Source: a virus. From it: 64,000 nt of DNA. The stretch covers positions 1 to 64,000 of IMG/VR virus record IMGVR_UViG_3300012205_000277. One strand, given 5' to 3'. How positions within the stretch are numbered: the first letter of the stretch is position 1; every line of letters begins with the position of its first letter. The translations under genes and the position numbers were made by a program. Below, one piece after another: positions 12,026-39,585 of this stretch. Under the pieces are notes generated by a model, which was not told the origin of the DNA, made no database searches, and worked only from the letters and a program-made list of their open reading frames with translations.

Positions 12026-13228
12026 TTAGGCCACGCGCGCCTTGACTTCGGCAAGCATTTCGCGCGTCTCTTCGTCCACCATGGCGACCAGCGTCTGTGT
12101 CAGCGCGGCCACGTTACCGGCCAGCATCTCGGGCAACTGCGAATTTTCGTCCAGTTCGTATTCCTGCTCGCAGGCAACCGAAAACACCAGGCAGGCCAGT
12201 TCCTCGAGCGAACAGGCTAAGCGCGAAACTTCCCACATGCCCTTGGCCAGCTTCCCCATATCGGCGTCGAGCGCGGCCAAGCGCTGGCTGGCAATCTTTT
12301 CCAGGTTCTGATTCAGATAAACCCGCGCGGACTTGCGCATCAGGGTGCGGATGGCGGCAATCTTCGTTTCCTCGGTAGTCACATCGACCCCGAATTTCTT
12401 GGCGGCAGCAACGATCTTGCCGCGTACTTTGGCCTTCTCTTTTTCCGGCGCGGCCACCATCTTCGCAATGCTCCGGCGGACATAGCCGGCTTCGTGCACC
12501 GGATAGTCCCAAGTTTCCGTCTTGTCGAGGTCGGGAACATGCGCAAAAGCCGTGCTCTCTAAATCCTTTCCGCCTATTCGCTTGGTTTTCTTGACTGGCG
12601 TTGCTGCTGCTGCTGCCGCGGGCATGATCCCTGTCGTAATCGGCGTCGCTTTGACTGCCTTCAAGAGGCTGACTTCGGCCTCGAGCGCCGCGATCCGCGG
12701 ATCGGATCCAGGAACTTCCGTCTTGAGGAACTTGCGCATTTCAATGCTTCCGTCGGTCTTTATGTATGCGAAGTGAGCCGTTGGGAGGCAGGGGTTGTCG
12801 ACTAAAGAAATTTCTGACGGATTCGCCACGTAGCGCATGCAGTTTTTGAAAACCGGATCGGGAACTTGATTGCCGACTTTGCGGCCGCCTTGAGAAAAAC
12901 CGGTGTAAACTCGCTCTTCGACTTTTTTCCAGGCATCGTCGTCAATTACCTTAAAAGTCATTTCGATCTCTTTGTCGGAGTCATCGAAATTGAATCCGAT
13001 GCCCTTGCCCACCGCGGAAAGCTGATGCATTTCTCGCAACGGCATGATATTCGCGCCGTCGGTGGCTTTTGACATTTCCGTGATCAGCGCCTGGTAGTAG
13101 GGCTTGGATTTTTCATAATCGCAAACTTCAAGATCCTTATCGGGCAATTCGGCGGTGACGATGCCCGACACTTCGCGCTTGGCGGCATTCACCTTTGTAA
13201 AAGGGAGGAATTTTAAGAGGTCAGACAT
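12026..13228 (-). CDS. Prohead protease-like protein (XkdF type) with long C-terminal region
   Basis: A 400-aa protein. Residues 1-150 match the XkdF-like prohead serine protease pattern: NIMPLREMHQLSAVGKG, RVYTGFSQGGRK, ANPSEISLVDNPCLPTAHF. The candidate catalytic His is in REMHQ and the Ser in GFS or EIS. Residues about 215-290 include a KRIGGKDL segment and a ChaB-like stretch (HEAGYVRRSIAKMVAAP). The rest is helical and may act as a built-in scaffold. Such enzymes cleave capsid scaffold during head maturation. ATG at 13228 has GGAG-type sequence nearby. Confidence 0.7.
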   Translation of the reverse strand: MSDLLKFLPFTKVNAAKREVSGIVTAELPDKDLEVCDYEKSKPYYQALITEMSKATDGANIMPLREMHQLSAVGKGIGFNFDDSDKEIEMTFKVIDDDAWKKVEERVYTGFSQGGRKVGNQVPDPVFKNCMRYVANPSEISLVDNPCLPTAHFAYIKTDGSIEMRKFLKTEVPGSDPRIAALEAEVSLLKAVKATPITTGIMPAAAAAATPVKKTKRIGGKDLESTAFAHVPDLDKTETWDYPVHEAGYVRRSIAKMVAAPEKEKAKVRGKIVAAAKKFGVDVTTEETKIAAIRTLMRKSARVYLNQNLEKIASQRLAALDADMGKLAKGMWEVSRLACSLEELACLVFSVACEQEYELDENSQLPEMLAGNVAALTQTLVAMVDEETREMLAEVKARVA

Positions 13229-13333: not shown

Positions 13334-13412
13334 TTTCTGTTAAAATCAAGCGGCGGACGGCTGTTGAAAGCAGCGCGCCCGCCAGCATAACGAGTCGTTG
13401 GAGGACTCAACC

Positions 13413-13892
13413 ATGCGCTCTCACTTTAATGGCAAACCGGTACAGTTTCAATGGTTGATTCACCGGGTCAAAGAACACAAATCAAATAAATGTCTATTCT
13501 GGGATGGCCGTCTTGAGAAAACCGGATATGCAAGGATTCGGTCAGAGAATGGTCCAAAGGAATTCGTCCATCGAATAGCATATCGGCTGTTTGTAAAACC
13601 AATCCCGAAAGGCAAGTTTGTTCTGCATCATTGCGACAATCGTTCTTGTTTTTGGTATATGCATCTTTATCTTGGTACAAAGAAGAAGAATTCGGAGGAT
13701 ATGGTCGAACGCGGGAGAAGCATGCGCGGAGAAAGGAATTGTAAAGCAAAGCTCACACCAGAAAATGTTATTGAGATACGAAGGCTTTACAAAGAAGGAA
13801 TCAATGCAACGGTCTTGGGATTCCGCTTCGGGGTGGATAGAACCGTAGCGTGGCAGGCCGCCACGCGAAGAACATGGAAATATTTAACCTGA
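13413..13892 (+). CDS. HNH endonuclease (free-standing homing endonuclease type)
   Basis: A 159-aa protein, the only plus-strand gene in the virion block. CLFWDGRLEKTGYARIRS, FVHRIAYRLFVKPIPKGKFVLHHCDNRSCF and HLYLGTKKKNSEDM form the phage HNH pattern, with HHCDN holding catalytic histidines. The tail AKLTPENVIEIRRLYKEG is a DNA-binding HTH seen in this group. It lies between protease and MuF-like genes and overlaps the 3' end of the latter by 9 nt, like an insertion. A minor start at 13398 is less likely. Confidence 0.8.
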   Translation: MRSHFNGKPVQFQWLIHRVKEHKSNKCLFWDGRLEKTGYARIRSENGPKEFVHRIAYRLFVKPIPKGKFVLHHCDNRSCFWYMHLYLGTKKKNSEDMVERGRSMRGERNCKAKLTPENVIEIRRLYKEGINATVLGFRFGVDRTVAWQAATRRTWKYLT

Positions 13893-14753
13893 AACTTCTG
13901 TAACGATTAAAACACATGCACAATTCGGATGATCTGGCGGCATCACCGAGCCGCTGGCAAATGGTTTATTGATTTCCATTTCTCCTTGAGCTTCGTTAGT
14001 TAAACATTCGTCGCAAGGTTCAAGATTCGATGTGAGCCATTTCACTTTCCTCACTAGCCCCGACTGAATCCAGGCCGAAAAATTTCCCCCGGCTTGCGCC
14101 CGACTGATTTCCGTTCTAGCAATCATGGCCGCTCGCGCTTCGCTAAAAATACCACTACCGGTTGCCTCTTCTTCCAGTGCCTCATGAATAGCTGATTTTA
14201 TTTCTTCAAGCGGAGTCTCTTCGGTGAAGGCGTCAGCAATAATTTCACGTATTTTATCACGGCTCGTATTTGATATTGCCCATTTAGCGTCCGGATTCTG
14301 AACGAGGGTCCCTTCGACGTCCCGTTTCATGCCAACCATTTCGGCGGCACGCTCGCGAGCATAATTTTCGGCAGTGGTGTTGGCCGATGCGATCATGCCG
14401 GCAGTGGAGAATTCAATCTGCAGAGCTCCCTGGCCGATCCCGGAGAGCATCGCGGATTCGAGTGCCGGCTGGACCTCGAGCGGCAAGCTTTCCCATTCTT
14501 TTTCTAGCGCGGCAATCACAGCGTCGGCGAAGGCTTGCACATCGTCATCGAGAGACTTCCGGAGCAGCTTCGCGTAGCTTTTCGAAGCATGGGGCCCGGC
14601 GATGGAATTAGCCGAACTGAAGGCGATGCGTTCGCGCTCGGCCGCGGAATCGCCTTGATGCTTTTTCCACTCGCTGTTAAAGACGTGCAACCATTGACGC
14701 CGGCGCGACGAGGGAACGTATTTAGGGACCTGCGACTCACTAGAGTAAGGCAC
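13884..14753 (-). CDS. MuF-like head morphogenesis protein
   Basis: A 289-aa protein with a GTG start. Residues 1-55 (YVPSSRRRQWLHVFNSEWKK) resemble a ChaB-like domain. Residues about 150-285 match the Mu gpF / SPP1 gp7 family, ending with CDECLTNEAQGE and PPDHPNCACVL, the conserved Cys/His end of MuF domains. These proteins sit inside the head near the portal, and some are carriers for ejected effectors. It lies between the portal and capsid genes as usual, although several small genes intervene. Confidence 0.8.
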   Translation of the reverse strand: MPYSSESQVPKYVPSSRRRQWLHVFNSEWKKHQGDSAAERERIAFSSANSIAGPHASKSYAKLLRKSLDDDVQAFADAVIAALEKEWESLPLEVQPALESAMLSGIGQGALQIEFSTAGMIASANTTAENYARERAAEMVGMKRDVEGTLVQNPDAKWAISNTSRDKIREIIADAFTEETPLEEIKSAIHEALEEEATGSGIFSEARAAMIARTEISRAQAGGNFSAWIQSGLVRKVKWLTSNLEPCDECLTNEAQGEMEINKPFASGSVMPPDHPNCACVLIVTEVSG

Positions 14754-14791: not shown

Positions 14792-15193
14792 TTATCTTCC
14801 GGCCAGCCGCGAGTTCATCCATCCCATGGCTTCTTCGATGCCCCGAGATGGAACTTCGACTTCGAATTCCTTATCGTCAAAATAAATTCGCCGAAGCTTC
14901 TTTGCTACATCAGCAGATGCTGCATCAGCAGGCCGAAAATCCCATAGGCATGTTGGTACTTTGGCGAGATTACGCATTTTTATCATCAAATCCCAGGTCC
15001 CGTACCGCCAAAGTTCGGTTTCGGGGTAGAACAGGCCGGCTTCTACTGGTTCGTTCAAAATCACTTCCCGGGCTCGCTTGTAAGCAATTGCGTCCGCCCA
15101 CATTTGGTCGTCAGCCGCTGCATTCAATTCCGGCGCCACAAAGAGGCCGATGATCCCGCCGAACAGAACTTTGAAAAAGGATTTACGCTCCAT
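14792..15193 (-). CDS. Chimeric small protein: exported-type N-terminus plus portal-derived C-terminus
   Basis: A 133-aa protein. It begins MERKSFFKVLFGGIIGLF, the same opening style as the next gene upstream (MERKSFLRTILLSPFAVL), like an export signal. The last 22 residues (VPSRGIEEAMGWMNSRLAG) match the portal segment DRIEEAMEWMNSQLAG. The DNA at 14795-14855 and 20125-20185 is close to 80% identical by eye. A recombination that pasted a portal fragment onto an unrelated gene is the simplest explanation. Function unknown. Confidence 0.65.
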   Translation of the reverse strand: MERKSFFKVLFGGIIGLFVAPELNAAADDQMWADAIAYKRAREVILNEPVEAGLFYPETELWRYGTWDLMIKMRNLAKVPTCLWDFRPADAASADVAKKLRRIYFDDKEFEVEVPSRGIEEAMGWMNSRLAGR

Positions 15194-15590
15194 GATTGAT
15201 CCTCAGCCACCGTCCGTCAGGAAGTGTTATAGTGCCAGTCTCTCGAAATTGCCGCATATTGTTTTTAAACGCCGTCACCTGCTCTGTTGTTGGCTGCTTT
15301 GGGTGTAAAAGACCGCATTTCTGGCAATCCTCCACATTAAACAGAAAGCCTCCCAGTTCGCCGTTCGGTTCACCGACTATGGCGGCAGCCTCTTTAAGCG
15401 TTAGGCGCGTGGGTTGTGATTGGCAATCCCAGGCTATACCAGGAGGAAGTAATCCGGGCATGCCCGGAGAATAATCTACCGTCATCTTAATATCGGTTGG
15501 CCTAGGCCACAAGCAAACGGCCTTCAGTTTTGCCGCCAGCACCGCGAACGGCGATAGCAGAATGGTGCGAAGAAAAGATTTACGTTCCAT
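15183..15590 (-). CDS. Hypothetical protein with signal-like N-terminus
   Basis: A 135-aa protein. The N-terminus MERKSFLRTILLSPFAVLAA is a basic-hydrophobic export-like segment and parallels the downstream gene. The middle has EDCQKCGLLHPKQP (two Cys) and the end TITLPDGRWLRIN. No family recognised. It overlaps the downstream start by 11 nt. Confidence 0.65.
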   Translation of the reverse strand: MERKSFLRTILLSPFAVLAAKLKAVCLWPRPTDIKMTVDYSPGMPGLLPPGIAWDCQSQPTRLTLKEAAAIVGEPNGELGGFLFNVEDCQKCGLLHPKQPTTEQVTAFKNNMRQFRETGTITLPDGRWLRINHGA

Positions 15591-15599
15591 ATTGCCTCC

Positions 15600-15806
15600 T
15601 CAATCAAAGTTCCTGGTCGTTGTTACGAGGTAAGAGTCCTTGCCCCTAATCTCAATGGTGAGCGTCTTAAACGCCGTACAAAGAGCTGGAGCTAATTTTT
15701 TTAGCAGTTCGTCGTCCAACCCTTCAGACTCCAAGGTAACAACGGTGCGAACCGACCAACTGTCACCTTTTTTATTTGGTTTGGTTTTACTAGTGGTTAT
15801 CTTCAT
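15600..15806 (-). CDS. Small hypothetical protein
   Basis: A 68-aa protein starting MKITTSKTKPNKKGDSWS at the ATG that overlaps the upstream stop (ATGA). Strand-rich pattern (VRTVVTLESEG, LTIEIRGKDSYLV). Family unknown. Confidence 0.65.
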   Translation of the reverse strand: MKITTSKTKPNKKGDSWSVRTVVTLESEGLDDELLKKLAPALCTAFKTLTIEIRGKDSYLVTTTRNFD

Positions 15807-16015
15807 AGCGATCCTATGTAGCTGAGAGTGGTCGAGCCACAATTCGGGCAATATTTCCAAGCTTTGCTGGCGATCCCTACACTATTTGATTCGCATACCA
15901 GACATTCAAAAACTTTTGCCCTGAGCAATAATTCTATAAGTTCTGTCGCGGCCGGCATGCCTTCTGCACAAGTTCGGAAAAGTTCTTCATCGGTCATTTC
16001 TTCCGCTGATTTCAT
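15803..16015 (-). CDS. Small zinc-ribbon protein
   Basis: A 70-aa protein with a helical N-terminus (EEMTDEELFRTCAEGM) and CLVCESNSVGI...YCPNCGS, a four-cysteine ribbon. It overlaps both neighbours by ATGA. A regulatory or nucleic-acid-binding role is likely but unproven. Confidence 0.7.
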   Translation of the reverse strand: MKSAEEMTDEELFRTCAEGMPAATELIELLLRAKVFECLVCESNSVGIASKAWKYCPNCGSTTLSYIGSL

Positions 16016-16236
16016 AATTGTCCCTTTGTCCTAACGCGCGCCTTCGGCTGCTCGCCGCCGACAACGCTCTTGCGAATGAACTGCTCGATATCCGACTCGC
16101 GGTATTTGATTGCGGAGCCCAAGCGCACAAAGGGCAGTCGAGGCGTGCCGAGTGATCGCCACTTTTCCAAAGTTTTTGGACTAAGGCCGAGTTTCTCGGC
16201 CGCTTCTCGCTGATTCAGCAGTTGCGCGGATGTCAT
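16012..16236 (-). CDS. Excisionase/AlpA-like winged-helix protein
   Basis: A 74-aa protein from MTSAQLLNQREAAEKLGL. NQREAAEKLGLSPKTLEKWR and VRLGSAIKYRESDIEQFI are the MerR-like HTH_17 hallmarks shared by excisionases and AlpA-type regulators. The reading frame is open upstream through GAA CGG to the TAG that ends the 16264-17217 gene, so amber readthrough would fuse them. Confidence 0.75.
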   Translation of the reverse strand: MTSAQLLNQREAAEKLGLSPKTLEKWRSLGTPRLPFVRLGSAIKYRESDIEQFIRKSVVGGEQPKARVRTKGQL

Positions 16237-16263
16237 TTTTTCCCCCCAGGGAAACAATTCCCG

Positions 16264-17217
16264 CTAATATACAGTTTTTGGAGTAGCTGCAAATTCACAC
16301 TCACCATTAGGCTGCCTCTCCGCGCATCGTGAGATCGTCCTGATTAATCCAAATACGTTTTCCATTCTAGCCCTTTCCTTGAGATGGTCTCTGGCGAATT
16401 GATCCAAATGTAAAATTGACAAACGAATACAATTCATCCGAGTCTTTATGTTTTCTCCAGGAACCATCCATCTGTCCAGGTCTTTAAACCACCAGATTGC
16501 ACAATTAAGTTCCTCATAGTTGTAAACATGCCCGCTTGGGCGCGGCCATAAAACCTCGCCATACATTACGGTTCGCTTCTCGTTTATTTGAAGAGGTTTT
16601 TTACGTTCCTCGTACATACGGATATCTGTTTGTTTGCGGAGCCCGTCAATAATGATTGACTCCGTCGTTGCTGGATGTGCGATGATTCGTTCCTTTGCCG
16701 CTATGGCTATTGGCAAAATCCGATCACGCACGGCAATCAAATCATCGGTTTTGGTTAAATCGTATCGCAGTCGAGTTCTGTGGTTTAACTTGGGGAATAG
16801 GGTGCGAAGGGTAGGTTTCGCAAAGACCTCGGATGTCGATATAAGAAGGCCGTTGTCCATAAGAGTTAAAAATAGGTTCCAGATATCTTGGCTACCGGAC
16901 CGCTTAATTGAGCTTGCTAGATATGACCTGGTTTGCAAATTTTTTATAAAGACGGCTAGTTCTTCCGCTCGCGGAAATGTATAAAATGCCCCATGTCTCT
17001 GTCTGGTCAGGGCATTTGTAGACCCGGACATTTTGTCCGGACCCGGCAAAATGTCCGGGTCGTACGGGGGATTGACTGGCACTGTGGCAATTCCCACCGA
17101 TGTATCTTCCGGTTGGCTGATAATCGAGACGTGCGAAATAACCGATGCATGACCGCATCCTGACAGTTTACCAATAAAACAATTAAGTTGCTCTTCTAAT
17201 TCAGATTCTGGAATCAT
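16264..17217 (-). CDS. Hypothetical protein, possible regulator or replication factor
   Basis: A 317-aa protein with no family I recognise. The middle (AELAVFIKNLQTRSYLASSI, SGSQDIWNLFLTLMDNGLLIST) looks like a winged-helix region. The C-terminal half has ELNCAIWWFKDLDRW and a long basic helix (DQFARDHLKERARMENVF). It lies between two excisionase-type HTH genes, which suggests a regulatory or replication module moved into the virion block. Base composition is more AT-rich than the flanking capsid genes. It ends in TAG. Confidence 0.6.
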   Translation of the reverse strand: MIPESELEEQLNCFIGKLSGCGHASVISHVSIISQPEDTSVGIATVPVNPPYDPDILPGPDKMSGSTNALTRQRHGAFYTFPRAEELAVFIKNLQTRSYLASSIKRSGSQDIWNLFLTLMDNGLLISTSEVFAKPTLRTLFPKLNHRTRLRYDLTKTDDLIAVRDRILPIAIAAKERIIAHPATTESIIIDGLRKQTDIRMYEERKKPLQINEKRTVMYGEVLWPRPSGHVYNYEELNCAIWWFKDLDRWMVPGENIKTRMNCIRLSILHLDQFARDHLKERARMENVFGLIRTISRCAERQPNGECEFAATPKTVY

Positions 17218-17248
17218 GTATTCCTTTGGAACCCCAGGGGTTGCCCAG

Positions 17249-17458
17249 CTAATCCCGTGTTTTGTGATCCCTTTTTAGAAATGCTTCCAAGCTGGTTTTG
17301 GGGATGAGTGTCTTACGGCCGATCTTCCTCCTCACCAGTTCCTTTGCTTTAAGCAGGTTATTGACGGTGCGAATCGAAATGCCCAAAAAAGTCGCGGCCT
17401 GCGATTTGGTGTACAGCGCCGGCTCAGGGCGCCAGTCGAGTTGGAACGTGTCCGCCAT
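17249..17458 (-). CDS. Excisionase-family HTH protein
   Basis: A 69-aa protein. YTKSQAATFLGISIRTVNNL and RKIGRKTLIPKTSLEAFL form an HTH_17 DNA-binding domain of the excisionase type. It ends in TAG just inside the start region of the next gene. Likely a small transcription regulator. Confidence 0.75.
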   Translation of the reverse strand: MADTFQLDWRPEPALYTKSQAATFLGISIRTVNNLLKAKELVRRKIGRKTLIPKTSLEAFLKRDHKTRD

Positions 17459-17536
17459 CTTTCATTGCACCAGTGCGAGAGCTGTTTCGTATTGGTCCTA
17501 TAGATTCCGGAACCGGCCGGAGGACTCCGCCTTGTT

Positions 17537-18526
17537 TTAATCGGCCGCGTCTTGCTTTGCGCTCGCAGGATATTGAACTTCGATTGGGCCGGCGGTGGCA
17601 TTTTTCTTAAATATACTTAATTTGTATACCCTGCCAAAGGAAAATTCCCGTAGCGCAAATGCTGCGACTCCTAGTTGCTTGGCAACACTGAGATGCTCTT
17701 TACGTTCGCTTGCATCCTGGGCATCTTCGATCACTTTACCGGCCTGAACAAGCACGTCCTCCGTACCATCGGGACTCGCTCCGGACTGTAGACGTCTCAG
17801 CTTCTCCAATAGTTCTGATTCCGGCCATTGCCAAAGAAGAAAAAGATAGGCCATCGTAGAAATCTTATCTAATTTCAATATTGGCTTTACCTGTCCCTCC
17901 ATCGACTTTTCAGCTATACGGATCGCCGTGTCAAGGATCGCATCTTGCCGTTCCATTTCCTGCTTGATTTCTTGCGGCGATTTCAATGCAGCCTGGCGAT
18001 TCCCTGCGGCGACGCGGTATGTTGCACTCACTTTAATGATTATTTCCTTTAGTCTCGCATTCAAGATCCCATCCATTTTGGCTGCGTCGGACGCACGGCG
18101 CACCTTAGGATTGTCGACAGTATCGATCGCATCGCGCGCCATTCCGCATACAATGGTTACTTTAAGCGAGTATCCCGCCATCGCCGCGGCGGCAAGTCGG
18201 TTTTGACCATCAGCCAGAGTGCCATCTTTGTAAAAACCAATCGAGGCACAGTTGAATTTCCATAACCCAGTAGTCATGCGCCGAACAAGTTCCGCAACCC
18301 ACTTTGAGTCAAGATCACGGTTGTGCTCATTGGTCGCCATAAATAACAACGCGCATACGCACGGGGAAAGTGTTTGTATCTTGCTAGCTTCGTGGCCAGC
18401 TTTAGCTATAGCCAATAGCTCTTCGAGATCGGCGCTATCTTTCGGCGAAGCATTTGCGGCAATTGATTCAATTTTCTTGCGGATCGTTACCTCAGGACTG
18501 TCCAGGGAAAATAATTCACGGTTCAT
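17537..18526 (-). CDS. ParB-like nuclease-fold protein
   Basis: A 329-aa protein. NEHNRDLDSKWVAELVRRM, GLWKFNCASIGFYKDGTLAD and GQNRLAAAAMAGYSLKVTIV match the ParB-superfamily domain common in phages (HNRPL...DGQHRL pattern; His in the last motif is Asn here). DTVDNPKVRRASDAAKMDG follows as usual. The C-terminal half is helical and of unknown role. In phages this family is not tied to partition and may bind or nick DNA or hydrolyse nucleotides. Confidence 0.7.
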   Translation of the reverse strand: MNRELFSLDSPEVTIRKKIESIAANASPKDSADLEELLAIAKAGHEASKIQTLSPCVCALLFMATNEHNRDLDSKWVAELVRRMTTGLWKFNCASIGFYKDGTLADGQNRLAAAAMAGYSLKVTIVCGMARDAIDTVDNPKVRRASDAAKMDGILNARLKEIIIKVSATYRVAAGNRQAALKSPQEIKQEMERQDAILDTAIRIAEKSMEGQVKPILKLDKISTMAYLFLLWQWPESELLEKLRRLQSGASPDGTEDVLVQAGKVIEDAQDASERKEHLSVAKQLGVAAFALREFSFGRVYKLSIFKKNATAGPIEVQYPASAKQDAAD

Positions 18527-18725: not shown

Positions 18726-21700
18726 TTAAATCCCAAGGCGGCGAAGCCGTTCGCTCGGGAGTATCAGTTTCCCGAGGTCCTGTACGGTGTAATCGATTCC
18801 GCTATAAACCAAATTCCTCAGCGTAAATACTTCGCCTTCGATCCCGCTGCCGGCATCCACATATTTTTGTGCGTCGGCTTTCGGATCCAAGTACGCGACG
18901 CAAATGTGCGGCTTATATTCCGGATGGGTTTCTGTGTGCGGGAGTACTTTCAGATCCTCGTGTAACTTTCGCAATTTTTCGCTTTCGATTCGAATTACCA
19001 AAGGCACGCCATCTTCACCAACCGGGAAAGCTTCAAGTCCTTCGATCGTAACTTCTATATCGCCAATTCCTTTGGTGATTTTGTTGATTTGTTTGGCGGT
19101 CACTTCGGCGTGAAAACCCCAAAGTACGGTGACGTGCGGAGCGACATCCCTCCCCTTTTTGGCAAAATCTTCTTCCTCGACTGGAATCGCCAGCACCCGC
19201 TGGGCATCATCGGCCGATAGATTGAATTGGACGCTTCCATATTTGCGTTTCTCGAGAATGTTGCCGAGGATCTTCTGGAACCGGCCGGAAACGGACGTGA
19301 GCTGGGAATTGAACACTTTACGTACAGCATGCTGGATGGCGTGGACGGCTTGTTCGGATTCGGCCGTCAGTACGCCGGCTTCAATACGCGATCCGAGCCG
19401 CTTTTCGAATAACGCTTCGCGAATTTTTTTTTTACCGTCGAGGCTTTCCTTGCCGTTCTCGGCCCCGGTGTTTCTTCCCGTCGACCGGCCGCCACCAGCT
19501 TCCTGGCTGACGGGGGTTCCGCCGCGCGTGGCATTGTGCCCGCCGGCGCCGTTCGTTGCGGGTTTCATAGGCGGTGCCGTGGGCGTTACCGGATGCGGCT
19601 TGATATTTCCCTTTTCATCGACCATCAATCCCGCGGTTGCCGGAGCGACGCCCACCGGAATGAATCCGGTCCCGCTGATCACCCCGAGCTGGTCGGCTTC
19701 CGGCTCCGGCCGCAATTCCTCGCCAACGCGCTTCCGGGCTTCGTTCGGGGTCAGCACGGCTTTCCCGACCAGCATCGTAAGCGCCGCGGCATTCTTCAGC
19801 GGATCCGGCTCGGCATAGGGGTTGATCGCGATTTCATAATCGGTCATGCCCATCTTGCGCTGGATGATGAAATCGATGATCCCTTTGACCCAGAGCACCC
19901 AGGGAAGCGTCCCTTCGACTTCGGCGGCGTCCGAAGACGATTTGCCTTCCGTGCGGATCATCTTCATCAGCCGCTGGGGGCTTGTCCCGTAGCCAAAAGC
20001 GATTTCGCGGATATGCTTTTCGTCGTAGAGCCCGGCCAGGAGCGGCTCTTTCGGGAAAAGAATCTGGTCGATTTTGCCTGGTTCGTTGAATCCTTGCACG
20101 AGCCGCCACTGGTTGCGCTTCGCGAGGTTCCCGGCCAGCTGCGAGTTCATCCATTCCATCGCTTCTTCGATGCGGTCGGGTGAGGTTCCACGTGGAACGA
20201 CTTGAACGACGCCGGGAACGGATCCTTCGGTATTCCCGGACCATGCAACTTTTCCGTTGCGACGGACATAAAGGAATTTATTGGGAACACAGACGCAGCA
20301 AACGGGGCCGCTATATTGTTCGCGGGTTGCGGTCCATCCGCGCGTATTTATGCCTTTACGGCGCGTGACCATCCAGCCAATTCGAGATTTACCTGAACGG
20401 CTATCGGGAAACTTTGCGGTTTGCGCCTTGCGTGTCCATGTTGTTGAAGCATCACCCATCTTCTGGATGATTTCTGTGAGTTGGTCAGCTAGTTTCTTAC
20501 TGACTGTGAACACCTGCGGAGTTCCGGAAGCGCATCCATCACCCATCCAATAATACTTCCAAAAAATCTCCAATTGGCGCGTGGTGGTATCGCGAATATC
20601 ATCCGGGATGAATTTTTGATGCGAATGGCCAAGTGGTTTCAGAAAGTCAACGAGCACTCGGCGCTGAAACTCGAACTGATGGCCGGAATAACATGGCTCG
20701 TCACCGAGAATATCCGCAAGCAGTTTTAGGTAGAGTTCATAACTGCCACGTGTATCTCTTTTCTTTTGGGCAATCTGAATAGACCTTCTGCGCGTAGAGC
20801 CTTCTGCTAAATACATGCCCATGAAAGCGCAATATTGGTCACCAGTCATGCGGACTTCGAGTGGATCTGGGCCACTTCGCTTTTTTGTTGACTTGAACAC
20901 CTTCTCAGAAATCTCAGTTCCCATCCATACAGATGACTGCGGGATTCCGGTGCGTCCGGAATACACTTCTGCCAGTGCATCGGCTTCAATGACAAATTCT
21001 TTTTTGCGCCCAGGCTTGCCTTTTCCAAGAGCGCGAGGCAGTGAATCAACAAGCATCCGATGGTTTGGTGTAACGAGCAGATCCAAACTTTGGCCCTTAA
21101 AGTGGACCATCTCCCCTTCGTAATGTTTATAAAAAGTGTCGTATGCTTTTTGCCACTCAAAGATTCCTGTTTGAATTTGACGTGTCGCAAATTCATCATT
21201 CTCATTTGTTTCTGCAAAACGGAACCAGCCGCGTTTTGTCAAGACTTCGGTATCATCGGAGTAGCAATAGTAGGCAAGAACGAACTGCATGCGTTTGATG
21301 CCGATTTGAATTTCCGGGGCAAGTTGTTCAGTCACGGAATTCCCGTATAGCTGAGAGGCCAGCGTATTGCGGGGCACGATGCTGCGCGGCTTGTAAACGA
21401 GTTGGTCCGTAGTTAGGTCGACCAGCGGCAAGCCCCACCAGTTTTGGGCATAAGCCGGGCTCGGCGGCATGGGCGTAAATCCGTTGTTATCTATATAGCG
21501 CGTGATCATCTCCCCTCTTATCGTAGGGAGTTCCGCGATTTCTCCTTTGTATGTTTTCCTGATCAAAATGCTGGGCGCATCGATGACCAGCAGATCGTCG
21601 AGCAGCGGCCGAAGCCATTCCTGCCAGTTGTGCTCGCGGTCGGGATATTCAAAGAACCGGTTCAGTTTGATCAGGTCGTCTTTGTTGTCTTTGGCGCGCT

Positions 21701-22070
21701 GCGCTACGTCCTTGCGCGACTCCATCGGGTTGGCGCGCATCTGGATTTCCCAGGGCGCGCGCGTCACGGTGTCTTTCACGTTCTCGATGCAGATGCGCGC
21801 CAGCGGATACGTCGCGAGCGCTTTCAGGTCGGCGGCGGAAAATTCCGCGTCGGCCCGCGGGGTAAAAATCAGGTTCTGCCCGGCCCACGTCTGGAAGCCG
21901 CGCGGCTCGGTTCCCGGGGGAGCTAGCGGGCGCACCGGCTGCAGGGGAGAATACCAACTGTCTTGATCGATGCCGCGGATGGTTTCTGGCGGGCGCTGAT
22001 ACAGCGATGTGAGTCCTTGCACCAATTGGGCAACAGGACGGATGACGAGACCGGTGCGGCCGTTTGCCAT
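18726..22070 (-). CDS. Portal protein precursor with intein and C-terminal 2H-phosphoesterase-like domain
   Basis: A 1114-aa precursor. Residues 1-268 and 614 to about 850 are a phage portal: TWAGQNLIFTPRADAEFS, LVYKPRSIVPRNTLASQLYG, IREIAFGYGTSPQRLMKMIR. Residues 269-613 are an intein, so the spliced product is about 769 aa. A Gly/Ala/Thr linker (PATNGAGGHNATRGG) precedes a helical region. Residues about 930-1114 look like a 2H phosphoesterase (LigT-like): HVTVLWGF at 979 and HICVAYL at 1055 are the paired HxT/S-type motifs, the second with Cys instead of Ser/Thr. The portal ring is the DNA entry and exit channel, so about twelve copies of the extra domain would sit in or at the head. Confidence 0.85.
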   Translation of the reverse strand: MANGRTGLVIRPVAQLVQGLTSLYQRPPETIRGIDQDSWYSPLQPVRPLAPPGTEPRGFQTWAGQNLIFTPRADAEFSAADLKALATYPLARICIENVKDTVTRAPWEIQMRANPMESRKDVAQRAKDNKDDLIKLNRFFEYPDREHNWQEWLRPLLDDLLVIDAPSILIRKTYKGEIAELPTIRGEMITRYIDNNGFTPMPPSPAYAQNWWGLPLVDLTTDQLVYKPRSIVPRNTLASQLYGNSVTEQLAPEIQIGIKRMQFVLAYYCYSDDTEVLTKRGWFRFAETNENDEFATRQIQTGIFEWQKAYDTFYKHYEGEMVHFKGQSLDLLVTPNHRMLVDSLPRALGKGKPGRKKEFVIEADALAEVYSGRTGIPQSSVWMGTEISEKVFKSTKKRSGPDPLEVRMTGDQYCAFMGMYLAEGSTRRRSIQIAQKKRDTRGSYELYLKLLADILGDEPCYSGHQFEFQRRVLVDFLKPLGHSHQKFIPDDIRDTTTRQLEIFWKYYWMGDGCASGTPQVFTVSKKLADQLTEIIQKMGDASTTWTRKAQTAKFPDSRSGKSRIGWMVTRRKGINTRGWTATREQYSGPVCCVCVPNKFLYVRRNGKVAWSGNTEGSVPGVVQVVPRGTSPDRIEEAMEWMNSQLAGNLAKRNQWRLVQGFNEPGKIDQILFPKEPLLAGLYDEKHIREIAFGYGTSPQRLMKMIRTEGKSSSDAAEVEGTLPWVLWVKGIIDFIIQRKMGMTDYEIAINPYAEPDPLKNAAALTMLVGKAVLTPNEARKRVGEELRPEPEADQLGVISGTGFIPVGVAPATAGLMVDEKGNIKPHPVTPTAPPMKPATNGAGGHNATRGGTPVSQEAGGGRSTGRNTGAENGKESLDGKKKIREALFEKRLGSRIEAGVLTAESEQAVHAIQHAVRKVFNSQLTSVSGRFQKILGNILEKRKYGSVQFNLSADDAQRVLAIPVEEEDFAKKGRDVAPHVTVLWGFHAEVTAKQINKITKGIGDIEVTIEGLEAFPVGEDGVPLVIRIESEKLRKLHEDLKVLPHTETHPEYKPHICVAYLDPKADAQKYVDAGSGIEGEVFTLRNLVYSGIDYTVQDLGKLILPSERLRRLGI
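20232..21266 (-). other. Intein with LAGLIDADG homing endonuclease, inside the portal gene
   Basis: 345 residues interrupt the portal between AYY and TEGSVPG. It begins CYSDDTEVLTKRGW (Cys1, block A) and has LVTPNHRML (block B, T-x-x-H). The two LAGLIDADG motifs are GMYLAEGS and YYWMGDGC, about 90 residues apart. It ends VPNKFLYVRRNGKVAWSGN followed by Thr+1. The penultimate His of most inteins is Gly here. Gene order outside is unaffected, so splicing should restore the portal. Confidence 0.9.
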
Positions 22071-39049: not shown

Positions 39050-39487
39050 ATGACCTAGATTCCACAAGAAGAATCTTACGTTTTTTGTTTCATCCGCACT
39101 AACCTCCCGACCGAACATCAATTTGTGCAAGCCCTTCATTCCGTCTATCATCTGGCACAACTCCGCCGCGAAGATGGCACGCCCAACATCGTCCTGATCG
39201 GGTTGCCGGATGCGGCGGCGCTCCGGCGCGCGGAACAGAAGCTGATTGCCGCGAAGATCCCGCATTTTGTTTGGGAAGAGCCGGATTATAATTTTGGGCT
39301 TACGAGCATTGCGACGGCGCCGATCCGCGGCGATGAGCGCAAGGCTTTGGCCAATTATCGAGTTTACAAAGCACCGGTGGTGTCAAGTAGCACGTCGCCC
39401 TCTAAAGGTGAAAGTGTCTGCTCAATACAGACCCGGTGCGCCAATTCCAGTGGGGCAGGCACGGTTGCTAGCGCTGTGCGGGTTTGA
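39050..39487 (+). CDS. Peptidyl-tRNA hydrolase 2 (PTH2)-like protein with in-frame TAG at codon 3
   Basis: The frame reads M-T-(TAG)-I-P-Q-E-E-S-Y-V-F-C-F-I-R-T-N-L-P. The stretch after TAG is needed for the fold: YVFCFIRTNLPTEHQFVQAL matches the first strand and helix of PTH2-like proteins (VRxDLxxxxxxVQxxH). NIVLIGLPDAAALRRAE, IPHFVWEEPDYNFGLTSIAT and GDERKALANYRVYK match the rest. The usual catalytic Lys of the first helix is absent. Starts after the TAG would be ATT 39059 or GTG 39125; the latter removes strand 1. PTH2 enzymes release peptides from stalled peptidyl-tRNA. The last 35 residues are low-complexity and overlap a tRNA-like sequence, so the original stop may be lost. Confidence 0.6.
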
Positions 39488-39510: not shown

Positions 39511-39585
39511 CCGCGTGTAGCTCAGTGGCAGAGCAGGGACTTCTAAACTCCTTGGGCGCGAGTTCGATTCTCGCCACGCGGTCCA
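39511..39585 (+). tRNA. tRNA with CUA anticodon (amber suppressor type)
   Basis: A 75-nt cloverleaf with encoded CCA. Acceptor CCGCGTG/CACGCGG is 7 bp, D stem GCTC/GAGC, T stem GCGAG/CTCGC with loop TTCGATT, 5-nt variable loop. The anticodon stem GGGAC/CTCCT has one G-U and one C-C mismatch next to the loop TTCTAAA, so positions 34-36 are CUA, which reads UAG. A shifted reading would give UCU (Arg), but then only three stem pairs form and spacing is irregular. Discriminator base is U. Confidence 0.75.

Follow-up and report, generated by a model that had tools for sequence, protein, structure and literature searches.

Fusions of 2H phosphoesterase domains to MuF (minor head) proteins and to portals were reported by Iyer et al. 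2017, who proposed RNase action, which they linked with the MuF/portal fusions, or defence-nucleotide degradation, and argued against RNA repair (PMC5512222). A 2022 follow-up proposed that such proteins are packaged, injected and directed against SMODS signalling (PMC9503650). With both the fusions and an anti-immunity role published in 2017 and 2022, the concept was therefore already known. The locus described here is like these polyvalent fusions in architecture and in proposed role against nucleotide-activated immunity (PMC5512222, PMC9503650); it differs in its H-x-C second motif, in a resolved slot position, in a MuF that has been split off and in a portal intein, and the published examples may include this lineage. 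What the lineage adds is a second motif fixed as H-x-C and a slot whose place between portal and MuF is resolved.

Three further groups were compared with the locus. The Acb1 proteins (T4 57B; FBB1, 7T26/7T27; BCSR5, 9Q2G/9Q2Y) share with its 2H domain the fold, the two His, the first Thr, phrog_755 and profile similarity. T4 and FBB1 Acb1 are stand-alone HxT/HxT proteins, whereas the domain studied here is portal-fused and HxT/HxC, lies at the Pfam cut-off and shows no obvious counterparts of the lid residues. The LigT/RNA 2',3'-cyclic phosphodiesterase family (PF13563, PF02834, TIGR02258) shares the fold and the first motif and is set apart by the second-motif Cys and by a TIGR02258 score of 20.4 of 65.7 bits. 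Portal-MuF proteins (phrog_2662; phages Polewnik, Mufasa8 and Sonali) have homologous portal and MuF parts without 2H, and the 2H domain occupies the slot where Mufasa8 and Sonali have NUDIX.

The window was the whole stretch of DNA analysed, 64,000 nt (IMG/VR record IMGVR_UViG_3300012205_000277, positions 1-64,000). A minus-strand ORF (22070→18726) encodes 1114 aa and ends at a TAA stop. Its parts and the associated head genes are given below, with relatives referred to by L numbers.

21267..22070, minus strand: portal, N-terminal part, residues 1-268 (phrog_2662 at 2e-31; alignment with L001/L008/L009; portal fold of L009)
20232..21266, minus strand: intein with LAGLIDADG endonuclease, residues 269-613, C...SGN|T (missing from L001, L008 and L009; junction AYY|C..N|TEGS)
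19578..20231, minus strand: portal, C-terminal part, residues 614-831 (86-94% identity across five family members)
19404..19577, minus strand: low-complexity linker, residues ~832-889 (from the sequence; low confidence in the L009 model)
19248..19403, minus strand: helical stretch KRLGSRIE..., N-terminal to the 2H domain (also precedes MuF in L092, without a 2H domain)
18729..19247, minus strand: predicted 2H phosphoesterase-fold domain, residues ~942-1114 (PF13563, PF23474, phrog_755; AF2 model; PDB matches)
19128..19136, minus strand: catalytic motif 1, H979-V-T981 (no change of His or Thr across the 54 aligned relatives)
18900..18908, minus strand: catalytic motif 2, H1055-I-C1057, with Cys for Thr/Ser (Cys in 9/9 lineage members)
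13884..14753, minus strand: MuF (minor head protein) gene (PF04233, 29.9 bits; phrog_2662 positions 582-708)
12026..13228, minus strand: probable head maturation protease (phrog_34096 at 1.6e-5, phrog_9427 at 7e-4)

An initial annotation had read the ORF as a portal fused to a 2H-phosphoesterase-like domain at residues 930-1114, and this placement (19283-18726, minus strand) was correct in coordinates and residues. The portal identity likewise stood: the N-terminal portion of the ORF matched phrog_2662 in a PHROG profile search (E=2e-31), and a model of the close homologue L009 matched the solved portals of phage 812, T5 and HK97 with E down to 1.6e-14 (the full-length model has a mean pLDDT of 59 and is reliable for the portal core alone). 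Profile searches and the predicted domain model together confirmed ORF 22070→18726 as a portal protein with a C-terminal 2H-phosphoesterase-fold domain. Separately, two adjacent predicted tRNAs with CTA (amber suppressor) anticodons were found at 39371-39443 and 39511-39585 (plus strand), and TAG is the stop codon of 7 of 43 sampled window ORFs, which read-through would extend by up to 88 residues; stop-codon recoding in the window is possible from these sequences. Since the portal-2H ORF ends in TAA, amber (TAG) recoding would leave it unaffected.

The window portal is interrupted by the intein at residues 269-613, which is absent from the initial annotation and was delimited by alignment to the three homologues that lack it; matches of the LAGLIDADG_3 and intein_Nterm profiles both fell under their cut-offs. 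Splicing would remove the intein and leave a portal with an independent C-terminal 2H-fold domain. An intein in L108 (residues 247-590) is 74% identical to that of the window and lies 24 residues away in the same portal gene (LYGM|C..N|SPTEQ, against AYY|C..N|TEGS in the window). Such identity at different sites suggests, at the level of sequence, that the intein moved between neighbouring sites of one portal gene. The L006 intein (residues 245-596) occupies the L108 site, yet is just ~45% identical, and the window site is also occupied in the distant portals L244 and L245.

Against the whole protein, Pfam returned PF13563 at E=1e-7 (32.6 bits, over the cut-off of 27) and the Acb1 family PF23474 at E=3e-6 (27.5 bits, cut-off 27). 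On the isolated domain PF23474 scored 32 bits against the same cut-off, and other lineage members scored 25.1-27.7. For comparison, T4 Acb1 reaches 202.7 bits on PF23474 and falls short of the PF13563 cut-off; the window domain scores slightly higher on PF13563 than on PF23474, and its membership of the Acb1 family is borderline by profile score. The sole PHROG matched by the domain was phrog_755 (E=6e-10), to which T4 Acb1 also belongs (5e-68). TIGR02258 (RNA 2',3'-cyclic phosphodiesterase) remained far under its cut-off.

An AlphaFold (AF2) model of the domain, built from 54 relatives, had a pLDDT of 90.3 and a pTM of 0.82 and matched 2H enzymes in the PDB (E 2e-6 to 1e-3, prob 1.00, TM 0.42-0.65). 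The top matches were the Burkholderia phage BCSR5 phosphodiesterase/Acb1, penguinpox cGAMP phosphodiesterase, Arabidopsis cyclic phosphodiesterase and FBB1 Acb1, followed by Usb1 and LigT. When a five-sequence family profile was searched against PDB sequences, the top three were all Acb1 (9q2g, 6.7e-6; 7t26, 6.4e-5; 9q2y, 1.5e-4). The initial annotation had named lack of a paired-His bilobal fold as one finding that would overturn it. That fold is present in the predicted model, and with the Acb1-topped profile matches the domain survives this test. Its claims of a 2H fold (PF13563 over cut-off, phrog_755, the AF2 model) and of kinship to Acb1 (PF23474 at cut-off, phrog_755, Acb1 best among PDB sequences) were both upheld.

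Both motifs pointed out in the annotation are there, H979-V-T981 within HVTVLWGF and H1055-I-C1057 within HICVAYL. H979, T981 and H1055 are retained, and both His and the first Thr are invariant among the 54 aligned relatives. A Ser/Thr is expected two residues past each His: HVT fits, HIC does not. The Acb1 active-site tetrad is HxT/HxT (PMC9117128), and the window has HVT/HIC; a canonical Acb1 was rejected on this ground. C1057 stands at the position of T4 Acb1 T115, which is Thr in 47/54 and Cys in 7/54 of the aligned sequences. The annotation had noted this Cys in place of Ser/Thr; it was found to be common to 9/9 distinct portal-2H lineage members (the window, L001, L006/L007, L008/L091, L009, L090, L108, L099 and L246). 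A degenerate DNA pattern of the second motif with Cys recovered eight stretches in the viral collection, all on lineage contigs; the same pattern with Thr instead gave at least 118 matches. Cys also occurs in the second motif of L047 (fused to another portal family), L069 and L073. As all nine members carry it, the Cys is, on these alignments, a fixed lineage trait that has arisen elsewhere too, rather than random decay.

Selection on the 2H domain is purifying (pN 0.12-0.21 vs pS 0.56-0.81), with dN/dS of 0.07-0.15 counting comparisons with unsaturated dS. With the Cys fixed and dN/dS low, a degenerate, decaying domain was rejected as the simplest reading, and a chance motif match was ruled out by the Pfam, PHROG, fold and selection evidence. 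At substrate-contacting positions of Acb1, the base-stacking aromatic W74 is Phe in 54/54 aligned sequences, and F107 corresponds to His in the window and Trp in three sister portals. Y12, in the N-terminal part of Acb1, could not be reliably aligned among the 54 sequences, and no obvious counterparts of E141 (adenine contact) or of lid W147 were seen in the C-terminal region, which is unreliably aligned. The literature library searched contained no paper on H-x-C 2H enzymes or on the BCSR5 phosphodiesterase.

Portal and 2H lie in a single ORF in nine distinct lineage members, and an assembly or frameshift artefact was rejected because the identical fusion occurs on several independent contigs. 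The annotation's proposal of a polyvalent-type fusion, a head protein joined to an effector-type enzyme domain, is borne out by the same nine. Most relatives of the window portal without 2H are single portal-MuF proteins (L092-L095, L097, L102-L104, L110-L114; L092 Pfam-checked, the others read from sequence). In L092 (78% identity to L009 over its best portal segment), the matching helix (KRLGARIE...VHHIQTALQKVF) runs directly into MuF with no 2H domain. This portal-MuF layout without 2H is also that of a cultured phage, Brevundimonas phage Polewnik. In Arthrobacter phages Mufasa8 and Sonali (L247 2134-5136, L249 2144-5131), NUDIX stands between portal and MuF in one protein; L099 and L107/L115 have portal-2H-MuF within one ORF. 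In the window, 2H remains on the portal and MuF is a gene of its own ~4 kb downstream (13884-14753), which aligns with positions 582-708 of the portal-MuF family phrog_2662.

The simplest account of these layouts is that 2H was inserted at the portal-MuF junction and that MuF then separated. The L107 second motif has Thr, so its 2H domain may be an independent insertion. From the Mufasa8 and Sonali arrangement, the junction is apparently a swappable slot, empty or filled by NUDIX or 2H in relatives, in which nucleotide hydrolases would come and go. The ~4 kb between portal-2H and MuF in the window (14792-18526) holds genes of unknown function, of which 17537-18526 matches phrog_5931 (unknown function); in L001, unlike the window, portal-2H and MuF are close neighbours. 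An HNH_3 endonuclease gene on the opposite strand (13398-13892, plus), possibly a homing endonuclease, overlaps the end of the MuF gene. L001 ORF 429-3254 carries an additional Cys-rich extension of unknown function beyond the 2H domain (residues ~790-941).

Related 2H domains are joined to three portal families: PF04860 (L025, L031, L079), PF06074 (L050 above cut-off; L003 and L023 slightly under) and PF06381 (L047). MuF is fused to related 2H domains in L023, L025, L036, L079 and L086, and other partners include ART, LPD, transglycosylase, helicase and poly(A) polymerase domains, which is the pattern of the polyvalent proteins described in 2017 (PMC5512222). A 2H domain with canonical HIT/HIT was also seen in an ORF beside portal and capsid genes (L002 5341-6855 / L019 4341-5855), which resembles a head protease as judged by eye only.

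The favoured role, for which the balance of evidence was judged about even, is that of a polyvalent portal carrying a virion-associated Acb1-like hydrolase of defence nucleotides (CBASS-type or related). It is supported by the Acb1-topped profiles and folds, the invariant His/His/Thr, purifying selection, the hydrolase-holding slot, and the occurrence of related 2H domains in polyvalent proteins with ART, LPD and portal/MuF domains. Against it stand the H-x-C second motif, the lack of clear E141/W147 counterparts, Pfam scores slightly nearer the 2'-5' RNA ligase family, and fold matches that extend to enzymes with other substrates (Usb1, LigT and CPDase). From portal biology, each portal ring would carry up to 12 copies of the 2H domain on its inner face, the crown. 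A phosphodiester would be held by both His together with the first Thr, and probably by the Cys as well, for metal-independent transesterification as in Acb1, and small defence nucleotides such as CBASS-type cyclic oligonucleotides or a related nucleotide would be removed.

Its main action would fall in late infection, when the portal is made and CBASS fires. Since T4 Acb1 activity and CBASS cell death are both late in infection (PMC9117128), portal-2H made at that stage could work inside the cell that produces it, with no need for injection. Alternatively, the domain might be released, ejected with the DNA and act in the next host. The portal normally remains on the capsid, and delivery would thus need proteolysis to release the domain; the gene of a probable head maturation protease lies close by (12026-13228). 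In SPP1, it is the portal that brings the MuF protein gp7 into the procapsid, and gp7 helps infection to get started (PMC6316719).

An RNA-processing enzyme, acting on 2',3'-cyclic phosphate ends or as a Usb1-like 2H RNase on host or phage RNA/tRNA, was considered rather unlikely. The top Pfam match is PF13563 (2'-5' RNA ligase family), the weak TIGR02258 match and the presence of Usb1 and LigT among the fold matches point the same way, and the RNase option has been linked to MuF/portal fusions (PMC5512222); however, Acb1 came first among solved structures in the profile searches. RNA repair with an ATP-grasp ligase was rejected: PF09414 (RNA_ligase family), the one ligase family searched, had no match in 11 records, which are possibly fragments, and this too counts against RNA processing. 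Hydrolysis of ADP-ribose-type nucleotides (e.g. ADP-ribose 1'',2''-cyclic phosphate or TIR-made signals) instead of CBASS signals was held to be improbable. The best fold matches include the plant Appr>p cyclic phosphodiesterase (1jh7, 1fsi), and the equivalent slot of the Arthrobacter phages is filled by NUDIX, whose members frequently act on ADP-ribose, but the sequence profile prefers Acb1 and the window has no direct sign of NAD/ADP-ribose chemistry.

The Cys itself bears on two further readings. A 2H-derived domain that the Cys has made catalytically weak or dead, and that persists because it binds nucleotides or RNA or contributes to the structure of the portal crown, is a distinctly unlikely outcome. 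It would fit H-x-C in place of H-x-[ST] in 9/9 lineage members, and an inactive nuclease domain is found in phage Mu MuF (PMC5512222). Both His and the first Thr are nevertheless retained in every member, Cys is a mild change that has arisen in other 2H proteins (L047, L069, L073), and selection is purifying, though this alone is also compatible with a binding role. Highly speculative is the proposal that Thr-to-Cys is an adaptation of head-borne 2H enzymes, e.g. for redox-gated or substrate-shifted catalysis (off in the virion, on in the cytosol), defining a new nucleotide-hydrolase subclass in an exchangeable portal-MuF slot.

The fixed H-x-C motif offers a way to ask whether a 2H enzyme can do without the Ser/Thr of its signature, and the slot found empty or filled by NUDIX or 2H provides a clean natural comparison for the function of head-borne enzymes. 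If the domain is active and virion-bound, the virion's DNA gate would itself carry a counter-defence function.
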